Assembly (NCBI GenBank): GCA_951812925.1
Contig: OX638372.1
Span: 73,797,407 to 73,861,406, forward strand
From: Calliopum simillimum
Lineage: Eukaryota > Arthropoda > Insecta > Diptera > Lauxaniidae
DNA length: 64,000 nt
Direction: 5' to 3'
Below, in pieces: positions 2-47,217 of the stretch (its first letter is position 1; every line of letters begins with the position of its first letter). The notes below the pieces were generated by a model that saw only the letters and a list, made by a program, of their open reading frames with translations, did not search any database and had not been told where the DNA came from. A program made the translations under genes and the position numbers.

Positions 2-584
2 ATCTTTCAGGCAGAGATAGTTGCGATAAAAAAAAGCCGCGGAACTTTTAGTGGGAAATATCTCTTATAAAAAAATAAACATCTACGTTGATAATAAAGC
101 AGCTCTTAAAGCACTTAAAAGCAACACTACTAATTCTAAAACGGTCTCAAACTGTTACAACTCCTTGCAAAGTCTGAGCAACAGCAACTCAGTGCGATTA
201 CTGTGGGCATTGCAATATTGTGGGTAATGAAAGGACTGTCGAGCTTGCTAAGCAAAGTGTTCAGTCACGGGATGACCTTTTAATTGTAGAAGAACCACTT
301 ATGTCTTATTACGCGCGAAAAAACAAGCAAATATTAACCCTAGCGGAAAATAGATGGCTAACAAACAATAGTAACAAAACGGCCAAAATCTTCTGGGCTT
401 CTTATAACAACAAGAAAACAACATACGTACTTTCTCTAAACAGATCTAACTGCAGACTTTTGAACGGTGTTTCAACTGGACACTGTTTAATTGGACTCCA
501 TGCATATATTGTAGGATGGGTTTAATATCAAATAACTGGTGCAGAAACTGTTCCAAACTAGAAAAGGTAGAAACGGTAGAACAC
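2..584 (+). pseudogene. Non-LTR retrotransposon RNase H domain and C-terminal Cys/His motif, left part
   Basis: The reading frame, with shifts near 56 and 206, gives the RNase H domain found downstream of RT in I/LOA-type non-LTR retrotransposons. Visible pieces are FQAEIVAI, then NIYVDNKAALKALKS, then GHCNIVGNER followed by ELAKQ. A Cys-rich tail (WCRNCSKLEKVETVEH) ends exactly where the foldback element begins. The protein would cleave RNA in RNA-DNA hybrids during retrotransposition. The reverse transcriptase must lie before position 1. Frameshifts near 56, 206 and 515 make it a pseudogene. The same frame resumes at 5274 after two inserted transposons. Clade assignment beyond RNase H-bearing non-LTR element is uncertain. 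Confidence 0.8.
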
Positions 585-592
585 GGCGACGG

Positions 593-1020
593 GATGTTAG
601 CACCCCATTTATGGAATTTCGGGAAACCACTTATGCTATTCAAAAGGTCATAAAATGGTCAAAAAAGGTCAGTTGGTTTGGCTAATTGGTCAGCGATGGG
701 GAGTTTTTAAAAAAAATTTTTAAAAATTTTCAAGGTCAAGGATATGTTAGCACCCCATTTATGGAATTTCGAGAAACCAATTATGTCATTCTAAAGGTCA
801 TAAAATGGTCAAAAAAGGTCAGTTGGTTTGGCTAATTGGTCAGTGATAGGTTATTTTTAAAAAATTTTTTTAACAATTTTCAAGGTCATTGGAGATGTTA
901 GCACCCCATTTATGGAATTTCGAGAAACCAATTATGTCATTCGAAAGGTCAACAAATTGTCAAAAAAGGTCAGTTGGTTTCGCTAATTGGTCAGCGATAG
1001 GGAATTTTTCAAAAATTTTT
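593..1020 (+). repeat. Three tandem units of about 150 bp in the left FB-1 arm
   Basis: The block GTTAGCACCCCATTTATGG recurs at about 596, 746 and 896, each time followed by the same run containing GGTCAAAAAAGGTCAGTTGG. The right arm (3520-3800) carries two inverted units. Unequal numbers of subrepeats in the two arms are typical of Foldback-type elements and suggest unequal exchange. Confidence 0.85.
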
Positions 1021-1749
1021 TTCAAGAAACCTAAAATTTAGAAAAAAACGTTTTTTCAAAATAACTTCAGAACGGTTCATCCTAGAAAAAAATTTGGAAC
1101 GTTCAATTCCCTATAAGGGTCTCTTCAAACTGTTTTTTCGTCAGACTTACCCTTCATGAAATGCGCACTTCTATTTTCAATTTTGAATTTACAGGATTTT
1201 TTAGATTTGAAAAAAAAAAACAGGCACAATTAACTGTTAATTCAAAAATCTTTGTTGGGTGCTGTTTTCAATAATTTTAAAAAATTTATGTTTTCTTTTT
1301 TATTAATTTTGCATGGGGCCAAGACTTCTTATGCACATGCCAAATTTTTTTATTTTGCAACTATGAATTAGATTCTGATGCAAATTTTTCCACTTACTTT
1401 CATTCAGTTTCGGTTTCAACGTTAAAATCTAAGTTGAAAATTCCTTGGGATATATCTGCGGTGAATTTCGACTCAGCCAAAGCAACTTGTTGTATTGATA
1501 TGATTTTGGCACTGTTGGAAAGGTGTTGTTGCGTAGTATCAACTTTTAGGCTAATTTTTTGCAAAAAATTATCTTGTTCAAAAGTTATGACCTTTTAAAT
1601 GGAAACATATAAAATACAACATACAAAATGTATCAAAAATTTCATCTTTTTAAAAAAAAAAAATTTATTTTAAGAATTTTTTTTTTTAAGTGTGTTACTT
1701 AATGGCATTTATATATTGAAATTGATTTTTTAATTGAACTTTTAGTCAT

Positions 1750-1922
1750 ATATTTGCAAAGATCGATTTACATATAAATCTATCAATGCATTTTCTAACA
1801 CATAATTATGACAAATCAAGGAACGGATTAAAAACACGGCTATAGTGACATGTGCTTCGCCTTTCGCCACAAAGACTCATCAGACTATTTTTGTTGTAAT
1901 TATAATTATATTTATTTCACTA
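1750..1922 (-). repeat. Inverted block Y, left copy, containing the minus-strand hammerhead
   Basis: This block is the near-identical reverse complement of 2299-2475. Outward of the hammerhead both copies share the run from GTGTTTTTAATCCG to AAATCGATCTTTGC. A related block starting AAATCGATCTTTGC recurs at 1924-2020 and, inverted, at about 1665-1765. The arrangement looks like a tandem repeat unit that was rearranged into a palindrome. Confidence 0.7.
1840..1888 (-). ncRNA. Hammerhead ribozyme motif, minus strand copy
   Basis: Read on the minus strand: ATAGT (helix I), CTGATGA (core), GTCTTT-gtggcg-AAAGGC (helix II with one G.U pair), GAAG (GAAA in the canonical core), a tiny helix III within CACATGTC, then ACTAT (helix I). 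Helix I is a perfect 5 bp. The cleavage triplet is GTC, with the predicted cut between 1847 and 1846. The GAAG variant should allow a G.U pair at 15.1-16.1. Helix III is only 2-3 bp and its sequence ACATGT is palindromic, as in minimal retroelement hammerheads thought to act as dimers. Activity is inferred, not shown. Confidence 0.68.
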
Positions 1923-2170
1923 AATCGATCTTTGCAAATATGTGACTAAAAGTTCAATTAAAAAATCAATTTCAATATATAAATATCATTAAGTAACACA
2001 CTTAAGAAAAAAAATTCTTAAAGTTATTTGGGAGAACACGCCCTGATAAGGTGGAAACACCTGCAATCGGTATTGAATTTGTTCCAAAGGAACAACTATA
2101 CCAAATATCAATAAATAACACAAACAACAATTATGATATATCAATACGTATTAACACACAAAACAAAAAC

Positions 2171-2245
2171 TGGCAAAAAGTCGGCTTCGCAGCCGGGACT
2201 TCTGCTACCAACCTGGAGATCCTTGGTTCGAGTCCCGCCCAGACC
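2171..2245 (+). other. tRNA-like segment with an exact pol III B box
   Basis: GGTTCGAGTCC at about 2225 matches the B-box consensus GGTTCGANTCC exactly, and a weak A-box-like TGGCAAAAAG lies about 53 bp upstream at 2171. A T run follows at 2273. I cannot fold a proper acceptor stem or T stem, so this is not a functional tRNA gene. It could be the head of a tRNA-derived SINE or a decayed tRNA. It lies in the loop between the two hammerhead-bearing arms. Confidence 0.35.
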
Positions 2246-2298
2246 AAAAACACAAAAAGTTTTCAAAACTTGCAATTTTTTTAATTATAATTAATTTC

Positions 2299-2475
2299 GT
2301 AAAATAAATATAATTATAATTACAACAAAAATAGCCTGATGAGTCTTTGTGGCGAAAGACGAAACACATGTCACTATAGCCGTGTTTTTAATCCGTTCCT
2401 TGATTTGTCATAATTATGTGTTAGAAAATGCATTGATAGATTTATATGTAAATCGATCTTTGCAAAAAGAACTAT
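2299..2475 (+). repeat. Inverted block Y, right copy, containing the plus-strand hammerhead
   Basis: This is the partner of 1750-1922, with only a few differences across about 174 bp. A transcript crossing both copies could form a long duplex, which would compete with folding of the two ribozymes. Confidence 0.7.
2331..2379 (+). ncRNA. Hammerhead ribozyme motif, plus strand copy
   Basis: Core CTGATGA is at 2336-2342. Helix II pairs GTCTTT (2343-2348) with AAAGAC (2355-2360) perfectly, with the conserved closing G-C. GAAA follows at 2361-2364, then a short helix III within CACATGTC with cleavage triplet GTC (cut predicted after 2372). Helix I pairs ATAG with CTAT; the first pair is C.A here but T-A in the inverted copy. 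All catalytic-core bases are canonical. The minimal palindromic helix III resembles the type I hammerheads of Penelope-like elements and retrozymes. The host element here is a DNA foldback, which is unexpected. Confidence 0.72.
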
Positions 2476-3813
2476 CCAGCGAGGGTTTATTCATCCACAT
2501 AAGGCTAGTCAATTCAAAGTTATGTCCATTTGAATGAAGACAAATAAAAACTTCATACAAATTAAATATATAAGAAATTAAATCTTCCTAGAAAAAAAAA
2601 ACTGTTACTTTTGAATTTTTTTTTATAGCTCATCAAAAGGCCCAACGCAGGTCTTTTTTTCAAGATACGGCTAGCCATTTCAAAGTTATGACATTTTAAA
2701 TGAAAGCAGAGGAGAACTGTTGGGTGAAAAAATATTTAAGGCAAACTTCAACAAAAAATTTTTATTTTTTTTTTTCAATGAGTTCTAGTGAAACACTTTA
2801 GATTACCATTATTTAGTATAAAAAAACTGCCCAAGGCATATGAGCTATAAAAAAAATCCAAAAGTTTTTTTTTTTTCTAGGAGGAGTTAATTCCTAATAT
2901 ACTTTGTATAAAATTTTTATGTCTTTATTCAAAAGGACATAACTTTAAAATGACTAGTCGTATCTGGATAAAAAATCTTAAAAGTAAATTTTTTTTTTTT
3001 CAAAAAATATGAAATTTTTGGAAGATTTCGTATAAGTTTTTACTTGTTTTCATTCAAAAGATCATAACTTTTGAACCAGATGACCTTTTCCAAAAATTAG
3101 CCAAGGCATTTATACTACGTTATTACATCGTTTGAACGGTGCTAAAATCATAGCAATACAACAAGTTGTTCTGAAGTTATACATTTTCAAAGACAATCTC
3201 GCAACAGCGAAAAAAACCCAAAACTTCAAACGATTTTTGGCTGAGTCAAAATTCACTTTAGATATATGGTCCCAAGGAGTTTTTAACATAAATTTTAACG
3301 TAGAATCCGAAACTGAATGAAAGTAAGTGGAAAAAAAAATGTGATCTTCTCTAATGTATGTATGCGATATCTCATTAAGGGTAAGTCCGACGAAAAAACA
3401 GTTTGAAGAAACCATTATAGGGAATTGAACGTTCCAAATTTTTTTCTAGGATGAACCGTTCTGAAGTTATTTTGAAAAAACGGTTTTTTTCTGAATTTTA
3501 GGTTTCTTGAAAAAATATCTTTAAAAAATTTTTGAAAATTCGCTATCGCTGACCAATTACCGAAACCAACAGACCTTTTTTGACAATTTGTTGACCTTTC
3601 GAATGACATAATTGGTTTCTCGAAATTCCATAAATGGGGTGCTAACATATCCTTGACCTTGAAAATTTTTAAAATTTTTTTTTAAAAATTCCCCATCGCT
3701 GACCAATTAGCCAAACCAACTGACCTTTTTTGACCATTTTATGACCTTTTGAATAGCATAAGTGGTTTCCCAAAATTCCATAAATGGGGTGCTAACATCC
3801 CGTCGCCGTAGAA

Positions 3814-5273
3814 CACGGGGGTTCAAAACATTTTTTAACCCTCAAGTTGCATCACTCGGAAAGTTTTTATATTTTCGTGTTCAGCGTACTTTCCTTATCA
3901 CATAAAAAAAAAAAATTAAGAAAATCCGTCGGGCTCTTTTTTTTAAATCGAATTTTCCGTTTTTGGCAAAGTTGAGTTAAGTCAAAAATAACATGCGAAA
4001 ACTAAAATCAATAAAAAGGAACACGAATAGTCATTTCTAACTAACTTTTGGATGCTGAATTCAAATCCGTTAACAAAATTGATCTATCGCTACAGAATTT
4101 TGAGGTATCCTAACACAATAATTACCAAAATATAAGATTTTTCATGATTTTTTCCTACTTTTGAGGTTATGTAACACTACAGTGTAATACTTTGTCATGA
4201 AACCTGTTATGTTAGTCAAAAGCACATATCTTTGCGTACAGAACTTTTTTTAAATTATATCAATATCTTTTTTTTTCTTGGAGTTATCCTAACCTAAAAA
4301 TTTAAAAAGAAACAAAAACAAGATTTTCGACTACGTTGAAGGCTACATAGAGAACGCACAAAATTTTTCTGCTCTTTTATACAAACTGAATTACTTACTA
4401 TTGGGTGTACAACTTAAAAACCGGAATTTTTTAGCGAAATTTAATGCTTTATTGTGGAAAAATACAATACAATCCCTCGTCTTCAAAATCAGCCATCGAG
4501 TGGTCACCTACGAATTTTTCCTTCTTCGTCACAACAATTTTAAGCAAACTAACTTTTTAACTTCAGTGTATTCCTTGTTTTGGCATAAAGTTTTTGTATT
4601 TCTTGATGTCATATTAAAGAGCTCATAACTTTGTAAAGCAAAATCGTAGATGACTATTTGATAGCTCATTTTGAAGACAATAAATGATTATAAGTGATGC
4701 AGTTTGTATAAAAGACCAAAAAAATTTCATGCGTTCTCTATGTAACCTCCAACGTTGTTGAAAATCTTGTTTTTGTTTCTTTTTAAATATTTAGGTAAGG
4801 ATAACTCCAAGAAAAAAAAAGATATTGATATAATTTAAAAAGAGTTTTGTACGCAAAGATATGTGCTTTTGACTAACATAACAGGTTTCATGACAAAGTA
4901 TTACACTGTCGTGTTACATAACCTCAAAAGTAGGAAAAAATCATGAAAAATCTTATATTTTGGTAATTATTGGGTTAGGATACCTCAAAATTCTGTAGCG
5001 ATAGATCAATTTTGTTAACGGATTTGAATTCAGCATCCAAAAGTTAGTTAGAAATGACTATTCGTGTTCCTTTTTATTGATTTAAGTTTTCGCATGTTTT
5101 TTTTGACTTAACTCAACTTTGCCAAAAACGGAAAATTCGATTTAAAAAAAGCGCCCGACGGATTTTCTTAATTTTTTTTTTTTATGTGATAAGGAAAGTA
5201 TCCTGAACACGGAAATATAAAAACTTTCCGAGTGATGCAACTTGTGGGTTAAAAAATGTTTTGAACCCCCGTG
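3814..5273 (+). mobile_element. Palindromic CAC-GTG element, family 1, copy a (4-bp TSD AGAA)
   Basis: Both ends read CACGGGGGTTCAAAACATTT in inverted orientation and arms of roughly 0.6 kb flank a non-palindromic centre. AGAA flanks both ends (3810-3813 and 5274-5277). The insertion lies inside the right target duplication of FB-1, so it is younger than FB-1. Arms contain two GATATCCTAACC-like boxes. Compared with copies b and c it has about 70 extra bases in the centre (near 4402-4470). There is no coding sequence. CAC termini with 4-bp duplications suggest a Chapaev/CACTA-related transposase in trans (inference). Confidence 0.85.
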
Positions 5274-9186: not shown

Positions 9187-11141
9187 TTCCTATTGGTGTA
9201 AGTATCAAGCATAAAAAATTTGGTGCTAATCGGAAAATATTTGACCGTGCCCCTAGGTCGTTGGTTTTTTTTAGAAGGAGGAGGTTGGCACCTCCCATTT
9301 TTTATAGAAAATTTTTTCCTAGTGCCAATTACATATGTACCCAATCTCATAAGCCTAGGTCAAATATTTCCAGATACACGACGAATTTGGGGTGAAGAGG
9401 GCGTGGCATCCCCCATTTTTTATTGGATACTATTTACTCAAGTATTGTTCATTTACGTACCAAATTTCATTCACTATGGTTAATAGTTTCAAAGGTAGGA
9501 TTTATTCTTTCGATTAAAGCAACATATCAACTTACTTCGTATCATCTCACTCATACTTTTATTCCTTAAGATTATGATTTACCTGATGATCGCGCAGGTC
9601 GAAATATGGGTGCTATTTTTTCTATATAACATGACGATAACAAAAATATATAACACTTGGTAAACGAACTTCAAACGATAAAGATGTCTAGCGATGAAGA
9701 AAAAAGCGCAAACTCATTTTGTACACTTACCTGCAAAAACCAGAATTAAAATATTCAGCCATAGCTAAAAAAACAGGTGCATCAAAAATCACTGTCCAAA
9801 GGGTTATTTCGAATTAAAGAAAGGGTCAACTTATTACGCGGGGAAAGGGTTCAGGTAGAAAAGCCAGTATAGATCCACAGTTGGTGAAAAAGGTGAAGCG
9901 CCTTTTTAAGCAGAATCCAAACACTTCAGAACGAGATATGGCTGCCAGAGCAGGAACCTCAAAATCTTCTATAAACAGACTAAAGAAAAAACTTAAGCTA
10001 AAGACCTACAGAGTTGAAAAAGTACCAGACCGTTCCCATGAAAAGCAGTTAGAGGCTCAAAAGCGAGCTCGAAAGTTATATGTCGATTACCTGACTAAAT
10101 TTGACTGCTGCATAATGGACGATGAAACATACGTTAAGGCAGATTTTAAACAGCTACCAGGACACGAATTTTACACCTGTTCGGCGAAGGGGCAGGTACA
10201 GAGCAAATTTAAAGATAAGAAAATTGCAAAATTTCCCAAGCAGTATATAATTTGGCAGGCCATATGCACTTGCGGTCTGAGAAGCAGTTTTTTTGTAACA
10301 CAGGGCACAATTAACTCGAAAATTTATATTGATGAATGCCTTCGAAAACGTCTTTTGCCATTTATTCGTGAGCAAGGGGGTACTGTAATATTCTGGCCTG
10401 ATTTCGCAGCCTCTCACTACTCTAGAGCCACCATAGAATGGTACAATAGCAATAATGTAAAGTTAGTTCCCAAAAATGTGAATCCACCTATCTGCCCAGA
10501 GCTTCGACCTATTGAGAGATATTGGGCTCTAATGAAATCAAATCTTCGGAAGAGTAAAAGTACTGCAAAAAATTTAAAAGATTTCAAAAATAAGTGGCGA
10601 AGGTCGTACGGTACTGTCGACGAAACAACTGTACAAAACTTAATGAAGGGTCTTAAGAAAAAAAGCAAAATATTTTTATATAAAATAAATATAGGATACA
10701 TTTTATTTCGAAATACGCTCGGCTTCGTTCTGGTTCTTTGAAAATCCCATAATTCAAAAATCATTTAACGATTTGCATGATTTTTTGCTTTTGAAGACAT
10801 GCTATCAGATTCCAGGACAAACTCATATTTGAAAGACCCTCGGCATCGTCCGGAATATTAAAAAATTTTGGCACCGGGACAAATTACATTCGCTGGAAAA
10901 ATGTCCAATACAGGGATATAAAAAAAGACCTTCTGAGACTGTGTGACAGATATGGATGAGATTACGTATATACATTTTTAAAGGGTATCGGAAACGGGCG
11001 AATGAAGTCGCTCCCAGGAAACAAGTTTGGATGCGTTTTTCCAACCTTCAACGGCTTGGGGCACGGTCAAATATTTTCCGATCGGAACCAAAATTTTTAT
11101 GCTTGATACTTACACCAATTGAACATTTTTCAGCCATATAA
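9187..11141 (+). mobile_element. DD37E Tc1/mariner-type transposon with about 90-bp inverted repeats
   Basis: A segment around ATTGGTGTAAGTATCAAGC (9192) recurs inverted at about 11103-11125, and the two arms match over about 90 bp, flanking the transposase at 9684-10741. The 5' leader holds two copies of a block with GGAGGTTGGCACCTCCC or GGGCGTGGCATCCCCC. The same arm and leader sequences occur without transposase at 40100-40400. Exact ends and a TA duplication are not resolved. Confidence 0.65.
9684..10741 (+). pseudogene. DD37E transposase (Tc1/mariner superfamily, ITmD37E-like)
   Basis: Begins at ATG 9684. A one-base frameshift near 9703 and an in-frame TAA at 9815-9817 disable the N terminus, after which the frame is open to 10741. 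Two helix-turn-helix segments are visible: YSAIAKKTGASKITVQRVI (before the stop) and ERDMAARAGTSKSSINRLKK. The catalytic triad is MDDETYV, FWPDFAAS and RPIERYW, with exactly 37 residues between the second Asp and the Glu. This spacing defines the DD37E group described from mosquitoes. The enzyme would cut and paste the element at TA sites in the nucleus. The catalytic domain is intact, so decay seems recent. Confidence 0.88.
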
Positions 11142-30400: not shown

Positions 30401-31851
30401 CACACCTGTCCCTACGTGTTTTAAATAAAAAGTGCTTGCACCCAAAATGTTTTTTTGGGGAAATGTGCGGAATGACTCTGGGATCAAACATATATAGCTC
30501 TTTTTTCAAAGTGAACGGCACTTTTTCAAACCAGCGCCGAAAAACCCAGTTTTTAGCACGGGGCTCTATTCTAAAACTAAAAAGAAAAATTGACTAAAAC
30601 GAATACAAAAAAAGAGTATGCGGAAAGTTATCGTTTACGAGATATTGCGTTTTTACTTAATTTTTTGAGTTTCTATTAAAAAATTAAAATTTTGCGTACA
30701 AAAAAAATAATGATCAATGTATAGAAACAAGAATAGTCAATTCCAATGTATTTTTTGACGCTAAGTCCGAATCTGTTATTAAAATTTCTCTATGACTTCT
30801 GAATTTCGAGATATCCTAACCTGAAATTTTGGCATGTACGGTTTTTTTACCACTTTTGAGGTTATATAACAGGACCAGGTAATTGTTCATCATAAAACTC
30901 GATAAAATTTTTAAAAGTACTATTCTTTTTCTTTAAAACTCATTTTGATTTATATCGATATCTTTATTTTTCTCCGAAATATCCTAACCAAAAAAAAGTT
31001 CAAAAAGTGCACGAAAGACGTGATTGGCAACATTAGTTGATTTGTATTAAAAGTTGTTAAAAATGATCATGATGTTCAAGAATGGAGAATGTTTCAGTAA
31101 AAAGTAATTATTGTCACTTGTAATTTACCATAATCATTTTTAACAACATTTTATATAAATCAACCAATGTTGCCAATGGCGTCTTTCATGCACTTTTTGA
31201 ACTTTTTTTTGGTTAGGATATTTCGGAGAAAAATAAAGATATCGATATAAATCAAAATGAGTTTTAAAGAAAAAAAATAGTACTTTTGAAAACCCTATTG
31301 AGTTTTATGATGAACAGTTACCTGCTCCTGTTATATAACCTCAAAAGTGGTAAAAAACCGTACATGCCAAAATTTCAGGTTAGGATATCTCAAAATTCAG
31401 AAGTCATAGAGAAATTTTAAGACCAGATTCGGACTTAGCGTCAAAAAATACATTAGAATTGACTATTTTTGTTTCTATATATTGATCATTATTTTTTTTG
31501 TTCGCAAAAATTTAATTTTTTAATAGAAAGTCAAAAAATTAAGTAAAAACGCAATATCTCGTAAACGATATTTGATAGGATTTTGCAAATTACGGTTTTA
31601 TAATTTACAGACAAGCAGGTAACTTTCTGCATACTCTTTTTTTGTATCCGTTTTAGTCAATTTTTTTTTTTAGTTTTAGTATAGAGCCCCGTGCTAAAAA
31701 ATGGGTTTTTTTGGCGCTGGTTTGAAAAAGTGCCGTTCACTTTGAAAAAAGAACTATATAAGTTTGATCCCAGAGTCATTCCGCACATTTCTCCAAAAAA
31801 AACATTTTGGGTGCAAGCACTTTTTATTTAAAACACGTGGGGACAGGTGTG
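30401..31851. mobile_element. Palindromic CAC-GTG element, family 2 (4-bp TSD ATTA)
   Basis: 1451 bp with long, highly similar inverted arms meeting around 31070-31130. Ends read CACACCTGTCCC in inverted orientation and ATTA flanks both (30397-30400 and 31852-31855). Arms contain GAGATATCCTAACC and CCGAAATATCCTAACC boxes and CACTTTTGAGGTTATATAAC, in the order of family 1. The paralogous empty site at about 29985-30185 confirms the insertion and its single-copy target. No coding capacity. Confidence 0.88.
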
Positions 31852-32262: not shown

Positions 32263-33077
32263 TGTGCACGGTGCTCTTGAACAGTCGATAGGTTTTTTGG
32301 CTATGTGGAGAAAATCTGTGAATAGGGTTTCATTTGTATTAGTTTAGTGGTCTGAAAAATGCAAACCCCGAAATCATAGCTGGTCATCACCGCGAAATTT
32401 AGCAAAAATACATATCCCGTAAAAAAAAAAAAAAAATCGAAAAAAAAACGCAACAAACAAATATAAAAATAGTTACATTTAATGTATTTTGCAATACTGA
32501 ATCTGAATCCGGCCTTAAAATTGCTATATTTCATATGGTTTTTGAGATATCTTAGCCTAAACAAGGAAAAAACACCGTTTTTGCTATATTTTGAAGCTAT
32601 ATAACTAGAATAACGAACATTCATACGCAAAATTCGACATTATCTGAAAGCCCCAATCTTTATACCAGGCATTGAAATAAGCTGTAATAATACCCTATTT
32701 CTGCAGTAATAACTTCAAATTTGCAGTAATAACTTCAGAATATTGTAAAAAATTGTAATAATAATTTTCACCTTTATTCATATTACTTTGTTTTGCGTTA
32801 ACCGTTGAAACTAAATACTCATTTTATTTAGCTTATAACCGTTGTTTTAGTTGTCTAACCTTACCAATTTGGGCTAAAATGTAGCAACCACAATAAGTAC
32901 TTGGCAACTCTACTCTACACATATTTTTATATATGCATTCGAAGAAAATTTCGCTATAAATTTTTAAATTGAACCGTTGCCATGATATCTGTTGTTTAAT
33001 ATTAATATATAATATTCATCACTTGAATAAGGCATTAAAAAAATTTTTCTAAAAATTGCAATTAAAAACAAAAAAAA

Positions 33078-33983
33078 CTAGTAAGGGTGTAAAATTTGGC
33101 CTGGCCAAACATTAAATACCCTACACTGCAGTATTTTTCAAATTTTGCTCATATGGGAGTTGCTACGCCCCTCTTGTCCGAGGTCACCCAGTTTTTGTTC
33201 AGCGCTTGCATTTATAGTTTTTAGTGTCTGAGTGAAAACTTTTTCAGTAAAGCGTTTTGAAGCTTTTGCTTATATAGGAGGTGCCACGCCCTCTTGACCG
33301 AGTTCGTCTAGTTTTAGCTTAGAGCGTGCATTTATAGTATTTAGTATTTGAGTGAAGCTTGGTTCGATTATCTCAAGAAACTGTTTCAGTATAGCATTTT
33401 GAAACTTTTGCTTATGTGGGAGGTACCACGCCCCCTTGTCCGATTTCACCCAATTTTTGTTGAGAGCTTTCATTTATGATTCTTAGTGTCTGAGTCAAAT
33501 TTGATTCGAATATTTCAAAAAACGCTTTCAGTATAGCGTTTTTAAGCATTTGCTTATATGGGAGGTGCCACGCCCTCTTGTCCGAATTTGCTTAGTTTTT
33601 CCTCAGAGCTTGCGCTTACAATTTTTAATATTAATGCGTATTTTGGTTGCATTGTCTTGAAAAAAACTCCTAAAATTGCATTTTGAATGTATTTTTTGTA
33701 TGGGCGGTAGGCGTGTCCGTTGACCGATTTCGCTCATTTTCAATCCCCCGAGCTAACTTTGGTGACAAAGGCAGTGTACCAAGTTTCATTGAATTATCTT
33801 GCTCAGTTTTCCCAAAAAGTGTATTTCAACACACAGCCAGCCAGCCAGACAGACGGACATGGCTATATCGACTCAGGAGGTGACGCTGATCAAGAATATA
33901 TATACTTTTCTATATCTGCCACGCCTCCTTCTCTGCGTTACAAACGGAAGGACAAAGTGAATATACCCTGGGTGTAGGGTATA
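33078..33983 (-). mobile_element. DINE-1-like element, copy b (minus strand)
   Basis: Read on the minus strand it starts at GGGTATA-rich 33983 and ends with the hairpin TTGGCCAGGCCAA-type sequence and CTAG (complement at 33078-33081). It holds the TATATATTCTTGATCAG block and about five internal GGGCGTGGCACC units. It lies in the centre of the family 3 element. Confidence 0.85.
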
Positions 33984-34027
33984 AAAAATTCTGCAATAAT
34001 AACTTTTTCTTATTTCAACCCCTGCTT

Positions 34028-34962
34028 TATACCCTACACCCAGGGTATATTCACTTTGTCCTTCCGTTTGTAACGCAGAGAAGGAGGCGTGGCAGATATA
34101 GAAAAGTATATATTTTCTTGATCAGCGTCACCTCCTGAGTCGATATAGCAGTCGATATAGCCATGTCCGTCTGTCTGGCTGGCTGGCTGGCTGGCTGGGT
34201 GCTGTGTGTTGAAATACACTTTTTGGGAAAACTGAGCAAGATAATTCAATGAAATTTGGTACACTGCCTCCGTCGTCAAAGATAGCTCGGCGGATTGAAA
34301 ATGAGCGAAATCGGTCAACGGACACGCCTACCGCCCATACAAAAAATATATTCAAAATGCAATTTTAGGAGTATTTTTCACGACAATGCAACCAAAATAC
34401 GCATAAATACTAAAAATTGTAAGCGCAAGCTCTGAGAAAAAATTTAACGAATTCGGACAAGAGGACGTGGCACCTCCCATATAAGCAAAAGCTTCAAAAC
34501 GCTATACTGAAAGCGTTTTTTGAGATATTCGAACCAAATTCGACTCAGACACTAAGTATTATAAATGAAAGCTCTCGACAAAAATTGGCTGAAATCGGAC
34601 AAGGGGGCGTGGCTCCTCCCATATAAGAAGAAGTTTCAAAATGCTGTACTGAAAAATTTTTTTGAGATAATCCAACCAAACTTCACTCAAATACTAAAGA
34701 CTATAAATCCACGCTCTAAGCTAAAACTAGACGAACTCGGACAAGAGGGCGTGGCACCTCCTATATAAGCAAAAGCTTCAAAACACTGTACTGAAAACAT
34801 ATTCAACCAGACACTAAAAACTATAAATCCAAGCACTGGACAAAAACTGGGTGAACTCGGACAAGAGAGCGCAGTAGCTCCTCCCATATGAGCAAAATTT
34901 TAAAAATACTGCAGTGTAGGGTATTTAATGTTTGGCCAGGCCAAATTTTACACCCTTACTAG
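34028..34962 (+). mobile_element. DINE-1-like element, copy c (plus strand)
   Basis: Starts TATACCCTACACCCAGGG and ends CTAG at 34959-34962 after the TTGGCCAGGCCAA hairpin. It faces copy b head to head across 44 bp, so together they form a palindrome of about 1.9 kb. Internal tandem units are as in the other copies. Confidence 0.85.
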
Positions 34963-35534
34963 TTTTATTTAAAATCGCATTTAAATTATGTCAATAGCTT
35001 AATTTTTCTCTGAAATATCGTAGACTGAAATAATGACAAAACACGTTTTTTGCACTTTTTTAACTTTTTAGGTTAGGATATCTCCGAGAAAAATAAAGAT
35101 ATCGACATTACTTGAATTAGGTTTAGAAGATTAATTAAAGCTTTCTATTTCTGCATCAGAATTTACGGATATACGTCCTGTTATATAGCTCCAAAACACA
35201 ACAATAAAACATAGCGTCGGCTTTTTTTCCTTTTATAGATTAAGATATCTCAAAAACCGTATAAGATACAGCAATTCTAAGGCCGGATTCGGATTCAGCA
35301 TTGCAAAATTCATTAAAAATAACTATTTTTATAATTGTTTGTTGCGTTTTTTTTTTCTGAATTTTTTTTATTTTATATGGGATATGTATTTTTGCGATAT
35401 TTCGCGGAGATGATCAGCTACAATTTCGGGGTTTGCATTTTTCAGACCACTAAACTAATACAAATGAAACCCCATTCACAGATTTTCTCCACATATTCAA
35501 AAAATCTATCGACTGTTCAAGAGCACCGTGTGTG

Positions 35535-41433: not shown

Positions 41434-42896
41434 AAATGCATCGAAGTCCTCGAACCAGATCTTCAAGTGCTCAAAATGCACGAAATGGTGTAACATTCAC
41501 CGTAAATTCCTCACCGATTCCATCGACATCATCCAATGTATGCAATCCTTCAACTTCTTATGCTCAAAATACAGCAAATGGTGTAACAAACACTGATAAT
41601 TTATCACCCGATTCCATCGGCATCATCCATTATATGTAATCCTTTACCGATTCCATCGACATTTCACAATTAATAGCAAGTTTAAATTCAAGGGAAAAGA
41701 AAGCTACCTTTAGTACTTGCACCGCTCGCTTCAACGGAGGTCGTAGAGTAGAAGATTTCATCGCGACCATCCTAGTATATCAAAATTCCGAAAATATAAG
41801 CCCGGATTATGCGTTAGCAAGTCTACCTTTGCTTTCTGAGGGGTATGCTTCATCATGGTGGCAAGGTGTTAAGCACGAAGCTCATACCTTTTCCGATGCC
41901 ATTGAGTTACTGAGGAAGGCGTTTGCTTCAGCAAAGCCTGATTGGCGTATCTTTGCTGAGATAATGCAAGATAAGCAAAAATTAAATGAGTCAACTGAAA
42001 CCTTTATTTGTAGAAAGCGCTGCTTATTTGCAAAATTGCAAAATACTTTATCAGAAGTCCACATGATTGATATGGTATATTCACAATTGCTTTTAACAAT
42101 TCGTGAACGCATTCCCAGACAAAATGTTAACACGTTCCAAGAGTTGCTTACCAAAGCTCGGGATATTGAGTTATTATTAAAAGAAAATAAATTACAACAT
42201 TCGGAATCTTCAATCAATAAAGTCATAGACCAGAAACGATGTAACTATTGCCGCCTTAAAAATCACTCCACTGAAAATTGCTTCAAACGCCAAGAAGCAG
42301 AAAGAAAAGGCTTAAAAACTACAAATAATCCGATTCCAAAAATTTCATGTTATGGCTGCGGTGCCGAAGGATACTATCGTTCCAAGTGCCCTCAATGCAA
42401 TTCCAAAAATTCTCTCAACTCTTCAGAGCATTTAGATTTCAACACAGTGCAGACATCCATCGTGGGAAGAGTTGTGCCTACTGTGAATATTTGTATAAAT
42501 GGTATGAAAGGTGAAGCATACTTTGATACGGCAGCAAGGACTAGTGTTGCCGGGTATCGCTTGTTTAACAAGTTAAAACAACGAAACGTAGAATTTAAGA
42601 AGTTGAAAGCAGAAATTGTTTTGGCAGATGGTATTCCCAAAATGGAAGAAGTTCTCTGTACCATAGCGGACATAATCATCGGCAACCGATATAAAAGAAT
42701 AAAACTTATTTGTTTGCCAAACGCTCAGGCAACAGAACTCTCCTCAGAATTGATTTCTTTGAACAATGTGACATTGTATTGGATCTCGCACAACGCTTGT
42801 GGTATTTCAAAGATGACTCTAAAACGAAACATGAGTTCAAGAACCAGTTTCCTGTTGCAGAAGACTCACATGAAGCAAAAATTTCTAATTTTTTAA
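41434..42896 (+). pseudogene. Element 2: Gag and protease N-terminal part
   Basis: From ATG 41434 the frame holds a Ser/Thr-rich N terminus, then an in-frame TAA at 41637-41639, then the capsid-like Gag domain (ARFNGG near 41730 and SSWWQGVK near 41850). Two zinc knuckles follow: CNYCRLKNHSTENC (regular CCHC) and CYGCGAEGYYRSKC, in which Tyr replaces His. The aspartic protease motif is YFDTAARTSVAG, with DTA for the usual D[ST]G. The frame loses homology near 42720, where the protease continues in the frame of the next ORF, so a frame change by mutation is more likely than programmed frameshifting. Confidence 0.88.
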
Positions 42897-45068
42897 AATC
42901 TTTTGAAGCTAGTAATAACCAAAATGTTAACGTTTGTTTTAATGAATCTTATACTCCAGATGATATCGATAATATTTTTAAAAATTCCGTTCCTACGGAT
43001 TTTGTTTCATCAGTTCCTCTTGATTTGTTTCCACCCCTAAAAAAAATCAAAGAAAATAAAGATGAAGTTATGGATTTCTATACAATGTCTTTTAATTCTT
43101 TTGAAATTGAATTAAAAAACACTGAAGGATTACATCTAATTTCAGATCAAAGAGCAAAAGTAATCAATTTTTTGCAAAATAATAAAGACATTTTTGATGA
43201 CGTATCGACACCAATTTCCCATGTCGAACACTTTATTAATACGGATTCACATTTGCCCATTGCTGCAAAGGCTTACAGACTGTCACCGGCTATGAAGACA
43301 AAAATCAAAAACGAAATCCATAAAATGCTTGAAAATGGGATTATAGAAGCATCTGAATCGCCATGGGCTTCGCCTGTAGTTCTTATTCCAAAGAAAAATG
43401 GGGAAGTTAGATTTTGCGTAGATTATCGTCGTTTAAATGAAATAACGGTCTCCGATTCTTATCCTCTCCCTCGTATTGACGATTTATTACATGCTGCAAA
43501 AACAACACCATTTATGACAACTTTAGATTTAAAGTCTGGACATTGGCAGATTAAAGTTGCAGAACGAGATAAATTAAAGACAGCTTTTACTACTCCATAT
43601 GGAATTTAAATTTTTAAGAGGATGCTGTTTGGTTTCAAAAACGCACCGGCCACTTTTCAAAGAATGATTGATAAATTTCGTAAAGGTCTTCCTAAAATCT
43701 TAATTCTGGCATATTTGGATGACATAATTATTTGCTCCAATAGTTTTAACTTTCACTTGCAAGATTTAAAAACAACATTCAACCGACTACGAGAATTTGG
43801 AATTCACTTAAACAGAGAAAAATGCAATTTTTGTGTATCTGAAGTAAAATATCTTGGTCATATCTTAACCATAGACGGTTTCAAAGTTGATCCTGATAAA
43901 ACTGACGCTATTATGAAGAGACCAAATCCAACGAATGTAAAAGAAGTTCTTTCTTTTCTTCAAACATCCTCCTGGTATAGGCGTTTTATTCCTAATTTTG
44001 CGGATATTTCAAAACCACTATCCAATTTAACTAAAAAGAAAACAACATGGAAATGGTCTTCAGTAGAACAAGCAGCATTTAACAGGCTGAAACAACTTTT
44101 AACTTCTTCTCCAGTCCTTCGACAAGTCGACGAAAAACTACCTTTTGTTCTCAAAACTGATGCAAGCAATTATGCGATCGGGGCTGTTTTACTCCAGGGG
44201 GAGAAGGAAAATGAACACCCCATAGAATACGCTAGTAGACTACTAATTCCTGCGGAACGAAATTATTCCACTACTGAAAGGGAAGCATTAGCAGTGGTAT
44301 GGGCTGTACAAAAGTTTCGAGGATATATAGAGGGATCACCATTAACTTTACTTACTGATCATCAACCATTAAAATGGCTTCTCAGTTTAAAATCACCAAC
44401 ATTTCGATTAGCAAGATGGACTTTACAATTACAGATGTACGACATTAAGTACGAATATACACCAGGTAGACAAAATGTTGTAGCTGATACACTTTCTCGA
44501 CCTCCTTTGGAAGAAAACAACACGGAACAAAATGCTATTGAATATATGTCAATTGAAGTTGATTTTCCACGGAAAGGTGCAGCAGAATTTAGGATCGCGC
44601 AACTAGAAGATCCAGACATTAAAAGTATCATTGAAACTTTTGAAAATAATGACGAAAATATAATAAGATACACCGATCGTGGTTACATAATGTCAGATGG
44701 AGTTTTATTTCGATTCTGCTCTGAAGAAGACTCTGAAAATGGACAGTTAGTAGTTCCAAAGTCATTAAGACCATTTATTTTGTTCAATTATCACGATAGT
44801 CCAACCGCCGGACATTATGGAAGAGAAAAAACAATTAACCGAATAAAATCACACTACTACTGGTCAGGAATGCGTGCAGAAATTACTAAACATATAGAAA
44901 ATTGCATAGATTGCAAAGGTTATAAACCCTCAAACATGAAGCCAGCTGGTTTGTTTCAAACGGTTTCAAGTAATCAACGTTTTGAAGTTATTGCTGTAGA
45001 TTTATTTGGTACTCTTCCTTGTACTAAGGAAGGATACCAGTGGATTCTGATTGTTGAAGATGTATGTA
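42710..45068 (+). pseudogene. Element 2: reverse transcriptase, RNase H and integrase N terminus
   Basis: Visible parts in order: end of protease (LLRIDFFEQCDIVLDLAQR), RT (WASPVVLIPKKNGEVRFCVD, LDLKSGHWQI and YLDDIIICS at about 43710), RNase H (FVLKTDASNYAIGAVLLQ, TDHQPL and VVADTLSRPP), and the integrase zinc finger (H..H with CIDC) plus the first core Asp region (VIAVDLFG). An in-frame TAA at 43607-43609 splits the RT just before the FGFKNAP motif; the frame is the same on both sides. The ORF is cut at 45068 by a transposon and runs a short way into it. Confidence 0.93.
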
Positions 45069-46337
45069 GGGGAAAGTGGGGTAAAGTGGGAAGTGGGGTA
45101 AAGTGGGAAGTGGGGTAAAGTGGGAAATGCCCCTTTTCGGGCAAACTAGCAAAGTATAGCTGTCATGCGCTTGTGACATGTACTTGCAATGACCGTAAGC
45201 AAATCTTTATGGTATAGCGATGCGTGCATACGTATTTTCGTGATCTCTGGAATCATGCAAAGTTTTTAAGTGTTTTTGAAATTTCATTTTGAAATTTTTA
45301 AGCATCGATATTTTTACTGTTTCTGGAGATAAACCAATTGTAAGTACACTAAAATATTTTTTGTAGTCTTAATTTTGATTACGCAAAAGGATTCCGTGTA
45401 ATTCATAGAGTGTAAGATTGAAGCTCACATTTTTTGCAAAATGTGGTATCGGGGTAAAGTGGGAAATTTTTTATGGGGTAAAGTGGGAATTGTTATTTCA
45501 CGATTGCTAGTCCCCACTTGTCAACGTATTATACTATTTCATGATCCAAATAAGTGTTGTACATTTATATTGTGAGTAAACACTCCGGAAAAGCTAAGCG
45601 AGTTGCAAAAAGCAGCTGAGAAAAAACGTTTAGCAAATAAACGGAAGAAAGAAGGAAACGAATCACAAAAAATAGAGTATAAGAAGCAAAAAAGCACCAC
45701 CAGCAAGGAAAGCGTCAAAGACGAAACAAAGAAGCTCTAGCTCAGATGAAGATCGTGATTTTTGCACCATTTGCATGGAACTCATGCCCGAAATCATGAC
45801 CAGACACAATACCATCAAATGCAACCTAAAGGATTGTCAACACCCATTTCACTTAAAATGCGTTAATCTCACTACAAGCTTCTTTTATTACTAACACTGT
45901 GACTCGGACTTTGATGTTTCATCAGAGAACGACAAATAAGCCACTATTTCACAAATTTTTTTTAACTCATTTTTTCATATATTTTTTTCTAGCAAAATCA
46001 TTATTTCTTTTCATATTTACTTCTATTGGTGTGTTTCTTGAACCTTTTTTGACTTACAATAAAGATATTAGAACTTTTTTCCAACATTTGTATTAGTTTT
46101 TATGTGTTTTGAAAGTTTCCCATTTTACCCCACGATTTTTAATTTTTGCCTTTCTAGGCATCCTCGATCAAAGCGTCGTACTCAACAGAAAATCCATATT
46201 TTCGGTTTGTTTCTTCGGCAAAAATAAAGCTTATTTAATTTTCTTTATTATAGGAAGTTGAAACATGAAAAAATAAGAACTTTTGTTCATTTTATGGAGC
46301 TTCGAAAAAAAGTTTCCCACTTTACCCCACTTTCCCC
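45069..46337 (+). mobile_element. TA-flanked transposon with GGGGAAAGTGGGG ends, inside integrase
   Basis: The ends are GGGGAAAGTGGGGTAAAGTG and its inverted counterpart. TA is duplicated (45067-45068 and 46338-46339). The left end repeats GTAAAGTGGGAAGTGGG and another GGGGTAAAGTGGGAA pair lies near 45433 and 45475. Removing the insert and one TA leaves the integrase frame continuous, which proves the limits. The 1269-bp size and the remaining C-terminal coding trace point to an internally deleted pogo/Tc1-mariner-class element. Confidence 0.9.
45579..45939 (+). pseudogene. Transposon-borne PHD-like Cys/His cluster (remnant ORF)
   Basis: The frame from 45579 shows a basic coiled region (ELQKAAEKKRLANKRKKEGN). 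After a shift near 45738 comes a cluster CTIC, CNLKDC, H..C, HC (about 45757-45905), which fits the first ligands of a C4HC3 PHD finger. An in-frame TAA interrupts it near 45891. A PHD-like C terminus is seen in several insect DDE transposases, so I infer this is the 3' end of the element's own transposase; the catalytic domain is missing. Confidence 0.55.
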
Positions 46338-46339
46338 TA

Positions 46340-47217
46340 GTAGATGGATAGAACTCTTTGCTTTAAAAGGCGCAACTGCGGAAAATTGTGCATTAACTTT
46401 ATTGAACGAAATTTTATTAAGGTTTGGTGTACCAAGACGAATTCACACAGATAACGGAAGTCAATTTATATCTGCAGTAATGCAAAAATTAACATTTTGC
46501 CTTGGTATGGAACAAACTTTCACTCCTGTTTTTCACCCTGAAGCGAATCCGGTTGAACGAAGAAATAAGGATTTGAAAACTCAGTTATCAATATATGTTG
46601 GGAAAAAACATAGCGAATGGAATTTGAAACTGCCTACAATAAGATTTGCAATGAATACTGCGAGATGTGAAAGCACTGGATTTTCTTCTGCTTACTTAAC
46701 GTTTGGAAGAGAGTTAAGAACCCCAACTGAAGTTCATCACGTCTTGAAAGGAATTGCTCTTTTGGAAAATTTTATACCACAAATCACCCCACATCTGTTA
46801 AAATTAGCAGAAGTTTTTTCTCAGTCACAAGAAAATCAAGAAAGGATTCAGGATAAAAACAAAATATATGTTGATAAAAGACGAAGACCTCAAATAAGAT
46901 TAAAAGCTGGAGATCAAATTCTGGTTGCCACTCACTTCAAAGGCAATAAATTAAATCACCTTACTTCAAAATTTGCCACCCAAAGAGACGGGCCTTATCA
47001 GATACTATCTCAAAAAGGATCTTCCTCTTACCAAATAGCTCCTTTGAACGATTTAACAAAACCTTTAGGATTCTATCATGCTTCAGCTTTAACACTCTAT
47101 AAAGGTGCTCGGTCAACTCCGAAATATTCAATACTACGAAGAGGTCGCCCCGCAAAGCAACAGACAAATGCTGCCACATCGTCGGGACGCCTTCAGTGGC
47201 AGAGGGGGAGTGTGTAG
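46340..47217 (+). pseudogene. Element 2: integrase core and C-terminal domain
   Basis: After the inserted transposon the integrase continues with HTDNGSQF (second Asp) and HPEANPVERRNK (catalytic Glu), then a GPY/F-like C-terminal domain (SKFATQRDGPYQIL) and a basic tail. The stop codon lies inside the 3' LTR at 47215-47217. The segment itself has no stop. Integrase inserts the cDNA into chromosomes. Confidence 0.9.
47201..47212 (+). promoter_or_regulatory. Element 2: polypurine tract
   Basis: AGAGGGGGAG lies directly before the 3' LTR, where plus-strand priming takes place. Confidence 0.8.

Follow-up and report, generated by a model that had tools for sequence, protein, structure and literature searches.

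Head-to-head insertions of a hammerhead retrozyme family in Calliopum simillimum resemble those of Penelope-like elements

Non-LTR retrozymes of metazoans, as described in the main text of PMC7229834, combine a type I hammerhead ribozyme with non-coding tandem units of 150-450 bp, low GC content and many dispersed copies, and they occur in genomes that also hold Penelope-like elements (PLEs). Passages of that paper present PLEs as strong candidates for mobilising retrozymes because the two have hammerheads and tandem copies in common and PLEs are found in genomes with retrozymes. The words 'inverted' and 'tRNA-like' are absent from its main text. According to part of a 2020 review (PMC7761336), animal retrozymes carry no motif that reveals the mobilising retrotransposon and seem to lack promoters. 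A further small hammerhead element, SMalpha of schistosomes, is called SINE-like in a portion of PMC8490949, and we liken it to the present family by description alone.

PLE insertions, as portrayed in sections of PMC3846280, carry inverted pLTRs, most often head to head, with target duplications of 8-10 bp and, in one described case, a 31-bp tail at one pLTR. With a purified anole PLE, both strands are nicked and extended (PMC11167929). Synthesis by this element begins within an AC-rich stem loop located 111-118 nt into the ORF; its hammerhead cut is at +26, and its 30-40-bp tail corresponds to the stretch between two start sites (PMC11167929). Hammerhead mutants of the anole element still insert in vitro, and no reads end at the cut (PMC11167929); cleavage may therefore not be needed for insertion.

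The sequence analysed here, hereafter the window, is a 64,000-nucleotide stretch from the lauxaniid fly C. simillimum. Its relevant features are as follows.

576..584, plus strand: 9-bp target duplication GTAGAACAC, left copy, a perfect match to the right copy
585..3807, no strand assigned: host foldback DNA element; both arms contain 150-bp tandem repeats (593-1022, 3529-3798)
1669..2466, no strand assigned: retrozyme insertion, a minus arm and a plus unit head to head; on the left its outer 3' end is at unit position 178, on the right at 94
1669..1925, minus strand: minus arm, unit 469-547, then 1-178
1686..1702, minus strand: AC-loop hairpin of the minus arm; the minus strand reads TTAAGTAACACACTTAA, a hairpin known from the reference unit
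1840..1888, minus strand: hammerhead, minus copy, predicted cut between 1847 and 1846, G15.1.U16.1 wobble
1921..2466, plus strand: plus unit, 546 bp, beginning at unit position 77
1989..2005, plus strand: AC-loop hairpin of the plus unit, read from the sequence and known from the reference unit
2225..2236, plus strand: B box in the tRNA-like segment, which has no A box at this site
2331..2379, plus strand: hammerhead, plus copy, predicted cut between 2372 and 2373, C2.1/A1.1 mismatch
3808..3816, plus strand: 9-bp target duplication GTAGAACAC, right copy, a perfect match to the left copy

A first-pass annotation had placed two opposed hammerhead motifs in this segment, and their presence was confirmed with a type I hammerhead descriptor, which matched only two sites in the 64-kb window, 1840-1888 and 2331-2379. 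The chance expectation is 0.0078 sites per 64 kb, based on 30 descriptor sites in 245 Mb of order-1 Markov sequence with the composition of the window. The motifs lie in 173-nt arms (1753-1925 and 2294-2466) that differ at five sites. The minus copy reads GAAG, with a G.U pair at 15.1/16.1, the plus copy carries a C/A mismatch at 2.1/1.1, and both copies fail a strict test of intactness that is passed by 38 of 50 aligned family copies. We take the changed pairs, C2.1/A1.1 in the plus copy and G15.1.U16.1 in the minus copy, to be important for hammerhead activity. The palindromic helix III that had been reported is a property of the family rather than of this locus: a self-complementary octamer, ACATATGT, forms helix III in 40 of the 50 family copies but in neither window copy.

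Support from Rfam covariance models, which the first-pass annotation had looked to, was not obtained, as neither window copy gave a hammerhead match at the gathering threshold. In relaxed searches RF00163 scored the plus copy at 18.1 bits and the minus copy at 14.2 bits (gathering score 34), and RF00008 scored a short plus-strand stretch at 22.6 bits (gathering 48.5); a relaxed search over the whole 64-kb window listed neither hammerhead copy. Intact copies from the family's tandem array likewise score under the cut-off (22.7-23.8 bits), and the Rfam miss is therefore hardly informative about the window copies. The minimum-energy fold differs from the hammerhead, and we counted this against the explanation that we favor below. 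A test for kissing between loop II and stem I gave a null result, with a run of five pairs (shuffle P = 0.08; genomic background 0.05), and covariation across copies was uninformative because the helices, judged by eye, are nearly invariant. Scans of viral contigs and of prokaryote contigs for the hammerhead each returned 0 matches.

What decided the nature of the segment was the search for tandem arrays elsewhere in the genome. The window segment has at least 207 matches in the 690-Mb assembly of the species itself (40 of 1,982 candidates scored), and locus L009 holds nine hammerheads in direct tandem at 544-548 bp spacing, all of them intact. This array bears out the earlier description of a retrozyme-like unit. 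The intact array unit of ~545 bp comprises the hammerhead, tRNA-like A and B boxes and an AC-loop hairpin. In the reference unit, taken from L009, the A box reads TGGTGCAGTGG and the B box GGTTCGACTCCC, and the hairpin (TTAAGT-AACAC-ACTTAA) occupies unit positions 150-166. The unit has a GC content of 31.6%, and the longest open frame is 95 codons (three joined units). Sequence comparison with the array unit reveals that the window unit lacks a stretch of ~20 nt that includes the A box. The B box noted previously between the two motifs is present, but it is no separate feature, being part of the ribozyme's own repeat unit.

The family thus shares with the metazoan retrozymes of the main text of PMC7229834 the type I hammerhead, the lack of coding capacity, low GC, tandem units, many dispersed copies and the presence of PLEs in the same genome. 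Its 544-548-bp unit lies outside the range of 150-450 bp given there, and we therefore regard it as a larger retrozyme variant, of which a 406-bp form also exists. Unlike the elements described in that text, it has tRNA-like A and B boxes, and its insertions are head to head with 3' ends at two fixed sites. The boxes recall tRNA-derived SINEs: of 46 anchor matches (loci L009-L028 and L063-L073), 37 are followed by an A box and 29 by a B box. ARAGORN detected no tRNA, and the tRNA-like segment is the most variable region of the unit (201 mismatches in 3491). Runs of T4 and T5 sit between the B box and the hammerhead and therefore speak against production of the full-length RNA by Pol III. For this reason we rejected the view that Pol III transcription through the hammerhead is settled.

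Conservation of the hammerhead core was assessed at two scales. The exact core occurs 1,754 times genome-wide (875 + 879; reversed control 0) and 2,874 times when up to three mismatches are allowed, and an equally long control segment taken from elsewhere in the retrozyme unit gave 1,765 and 3,176 occurrences, respectively. With 61% exact matches for the core and 56% for the control, the core is only slightly better kept across the genome. A clearer difference emerged from a group of 20 loci selected for overall similarity, namely L010-L028 together with the window (L009 was left out as the source of the reference), in which the core has 22 mismatches in 2121 and the unit outside the motif and the tRNA-like part has 362 in 15859, a ratio of 0.45 (bootstrap 0.23-0.71). 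Note that adding the second set of insertions described below would lower the ratio to 0.34, a value that we did not use because that set was chosen by exact hammerheads.

A second array departs from the standard unit. The first 4000 bases of contig C1 (L062 1-4000) contain a 406-bp tandem form whose loop II is GTGGCGAACG and which lacks about unit 100-181 and 216-317; the first of these missing stretches covers both end sites and the hairpin. It could represent a satellite close to the end of a chromosome; alternatively, the assembly may break inside an array. That a 406-bp satellite form lacks the start region would agree with a function of this region in retrotransposition, as far as a single array from which other parts are missing too can be read in this way.

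The dispersed copies have a characteristic insertion form. Among 100 places listed, neighboring copies of the control segment within 1 kb were arranged minus-plus in 17 cases, plus-plus in 8, minus-minus in 1 and plus-minus in 0; for the hammerhead pattern within 1.5 kb (100 places listed, the array at the start of C1 left out), there were 11 minus-plus and 6 plus-plus neighbors. We analysed a first set of 22 insertions at 21 loci, 16 of them two-armed and head to head and six one-armed. One outer end in an A interval (94-147, the value 94 being that of the window's own insertion) and the other in a B interval (178-185) were seen in 12 of the 13 two-armed insertions with both outer ends scored, the exception being L010 with two A ends; L012, L015 and L023 have a single scored outer end each and stand outside this count. 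Because L014 is a near-duplicate of L013 (825 bp shared at 99%), it was dropped from the total, which leaves 11 of 12. The second set comprised all 11 minus-plus pairs among the places listed and was chosen on orientation before the ends were seen. Every one of these 11 has one A end (121-147) and one B end (164-185), six in the order BA and five in the order AB. Taking both sets together, 22 of the 23 two-armed insertions that were scored are bounded by two 3' ends, of which one falls at 94-147 and the other at 164-187.

Flanking sequences carry a matching signal. Flank matches of at least 9 bp were found for 9 of 22 insertions of the first set, all nine two-armed, versus 12 of 460 mispaired flanks, and for 8 of 11 of the second set versus 7 of 110. 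Matches of 9-18 bp that resemble target duplications are thus present at 17 of 27 two-armed insertions and 0 of 6 one-armed insertions, although the compared stretches take in 8 nt of the element and some of the matches are A or T runs (e.g. L013, L024 and L072). Head-to-head arrangement with the 3' ends outside is a common insertion form of this retrozyme family, one end falling at a site A of about 120-147 and the other at a site B of about 164-187. No description of this form for retrozymes was found in the literature searched, which covered few subscription papers, and searches on foldback plus hammerhead or arthropod plus hammerhead yielded nothing relevant.

The two arms of an insertion are more alike than arms of different insertions. 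Over unit positions 21-118, arms differ by 1.7% within and 2.6% between insertions (permutation P = 0.0002) at 20 of the 24 two-armed loci; L009, L013, L023 and L025 were too short in one arm. No difference at all separates the arms at 10 of these 20 loci. Contrary cases are L020 (12 of 91 sites differ) and L027 (6 of 98) and, outside the 20, L013, whose arms carry different variants. The two arms tend to derive from the same or a sibling template. The inner ends are mostly far apart on the unit, and 9 of 57 fall between -10 and +20 relative to the predicted cut (P = 0.005; L014 and the minus arm of L015 left out), an interval that was chosen after the first set had been seen. The first set contributes 8 of 35 and the second 1 of 22, but the requirement for a hammerhead core in both arms, by which the second set was chosen, works against such ends and makes that set an unfair test. 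Stopping of the cDNA near the predicted cut is thus a lead only, to which the second set lends no support.

The window insertion can now be compared with this form. Its left end at 178 conforms and its right end stops at 94; its flanks hold no convincing target duplication. The surrounding element is of another kind. The host element at 585-3807 resembles foldback/MULE-like DNA transposons in its long inverted arms, in the tandem repeats inside them and in its 9-bp target duplication, and it is only the landing site of the retrozyme. Its TIR starts GGCGACGGGATG, and its left arm pairs with the right arm up to 1681 and resumes from 2487. The corresponding site in the right arm, near 2970, is without the retrozyme block, and therefore the block was either inserted in the left arm or lost from the other. 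Judged from these sequences, the hammerhead pair in the window is one decayed retrozyme insertion in an arm of a separate foldback element. A MITE-like element with a hammerhead in its loop had also been considered and was rejected, as genomic copies identify the supposed 'terminal repeats' as the 3' ends of two copies that face opposite ways.

PLEs are present in the same genome, with at least 51 GIY-YIG matches (150 of 209 candidates scored). Both PLE reading frames examined (841 and 673 aa) contain RVT_1 and GIY-YIG domains. Downstream of the endonuclease, four PLE groups (L032-L061) carry hammerhead-like motifs, each of which has a single additional nucleotide between CTGATGA and helix II and is thus non-canonical as written. 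The 3' ends of one group, PLE-1, fall at two positions, about 88 and 125 nt past the predicted cut, and at two of its loci the shorter end is on the minus arm and the longer on the plus arm, with flank matches of 13 and 15 bp. Post-cut sequences of the retrozyme and the four PLE groups show no similarity beyond chance (P = 0.44, 0.49, 0.90 and 0.32), and thus no partner PLE is named.

Three side observations concern these elements. Close opposed GIY-YIG pairs, among the matches listed, are minus-then-plus in 4 of 4 cases, as in the retrozyme (C2:48387135/48387972, C2:128911501/128913193, C5:64069088/64071562 and C3:12136299/12136751). At the shorter end site of the PLE-1 loci L050, L052 and L058, as at site A of the retrozyme, CAATTT is followed within two bases by TCAATA, a likeness noted by eye only, for which the whole-region alignment test was not significant. 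Diverged retrozyme pieces with 78-80% identity to the unit (L039 227-379 and 698-862) are found beside a PLE locus on contig C118.

PLEs, as described in parts of PMC3846280 and in PMC11167929, share with the retrozyme the head-to-head inverted arms, a tail at one 3' end, short target duplications, an AC-rich stem loop near the start sites and a minimal type I hammerhead. The retrozyme unit, unlike PLEs, is without an RT/endonuclease (GIY-YIG) frame, and the two have no common sequence. Its AC-loop hairpin lies between its two end sites, which recalls the anole PLE, although the distances differ: the retrozyme ends fall 120-187 nt past the cut and ~57 nt apart, whereas the anole PLE starts at ~85-92 nt and has a tail of 30-40 nt (PMC11167929). 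Because the insertion form is PLE-like, we infer that PLE enzymes mobilise the retrozyme. The window pair is probably a decayed, non-autonomous retrozyme insertion in a foldback arm, from a family that such enzymes would move by extending both ends of a break. Under this proposal, the hammerhead would cut transcripts into units, which would probably be circularised; a PLE-type RT/endonuclease would make a staggered double break; each broken end would act as a primer for copying the same RNA, starting at A or B around the AC-loop hairpin; and the cDNAs would grow, sometimes through several rounds of the unit, until their inner ends were joined to leave an inverted pair. A more specific version, that retrozymes are the SINEs of Penelope elements and that asymmetric, two-ended target-primed reverse transcription on one (circular) RNA, from sites A and B flanking the hairpin, would give the regular head-to-head product with one A and one B end, stands in our judgment at an even balance.

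Other explanations were weighed against this one. The first-pass annotation had suggested that a foldback transposon captured a retrozyme piece once and that the opposed pair arose from the inverted structure of that transposon. A foldback element does enclose the block, but the opposite arm is without it, and opposed minus-plus pairs with the same end positions recur at many loci with unrelated flanks; this cause of the orientation was abandoned as very improbable. Twin priming by LINEs yields inverted pieces, and the failure to find a partner PLE by sequence leaves some room for LINE-type or other machinery, or for recombination after insertion, as the source of the pairs. Outer 3' ends that fall at two fixed sites are not a prediction of twin priming, however, and none of the outer ends displayed has a poly(A) tail, though many are A/T-rich, so that we regard such an origin as unlikely. 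Whether the hammerhead likeness is fortuitous, with an RNA that does not cut, is a separate question. All Rfam scores fall under the gathering threshold and the core is little better kept than the control (1,754 of 2,874 versus 1,765 of 3,176 exact), but every tested core base and helix is kept in 38 of 50 copies, the mismatch ratio of 0.45 has a bootstrap range (0.23-0.71) below one, and only 0.008 sites were expected per window, which makes mere resemblance improbable.

The retrozyme family may also be accepted and the second arm ascribed to self-priming, by folding back of a cDNA or an antisense RNA, as has been proposed for rotifer PLEs. The inner ends of L023 and L025, the exceptions in lying 3 nt apart in a near-perfect palindrome, are what such a process would leave, and the likeness of arms within one insertion agrees with it, as does the preference for self-priming on an antisense template expressed in part of PMC3846280. 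A snap-back copy should repeat one end, whereas the outer ends differ (A versus B) in 22 of 23 insertions, and the inner ends are mostly distant on the unit. The second arm is therefore not generally a fold-back copy of the first, and we consider self-priming a doubtful account of the family. Extension of both break ends by PLE enzymes remains our preferred reading. Retrozyme insertions carry a PLE-like signature, the rule for their ends held in a second set, and an A box is present in most units examined. With the purified-PLE assay (PMC11167929), the link between retrozymes and PLEs and the use of both sides of a break by PLEs become directly testable.

The window holds several further features. 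The sequence to the right of the foldback element has five further occurrences within it. Two long self-inverse palindromes, with ~90-91% identity between arms, occupy 30629-31570 and 33070-34970, and a reading frame with a DDE_3 match lies at 9818-10741. A Ty3/Gypsy element is spread over several frames at 41640-47217, and the named best matches of its pol frame are from spiders, butterflies, moths and beetles.
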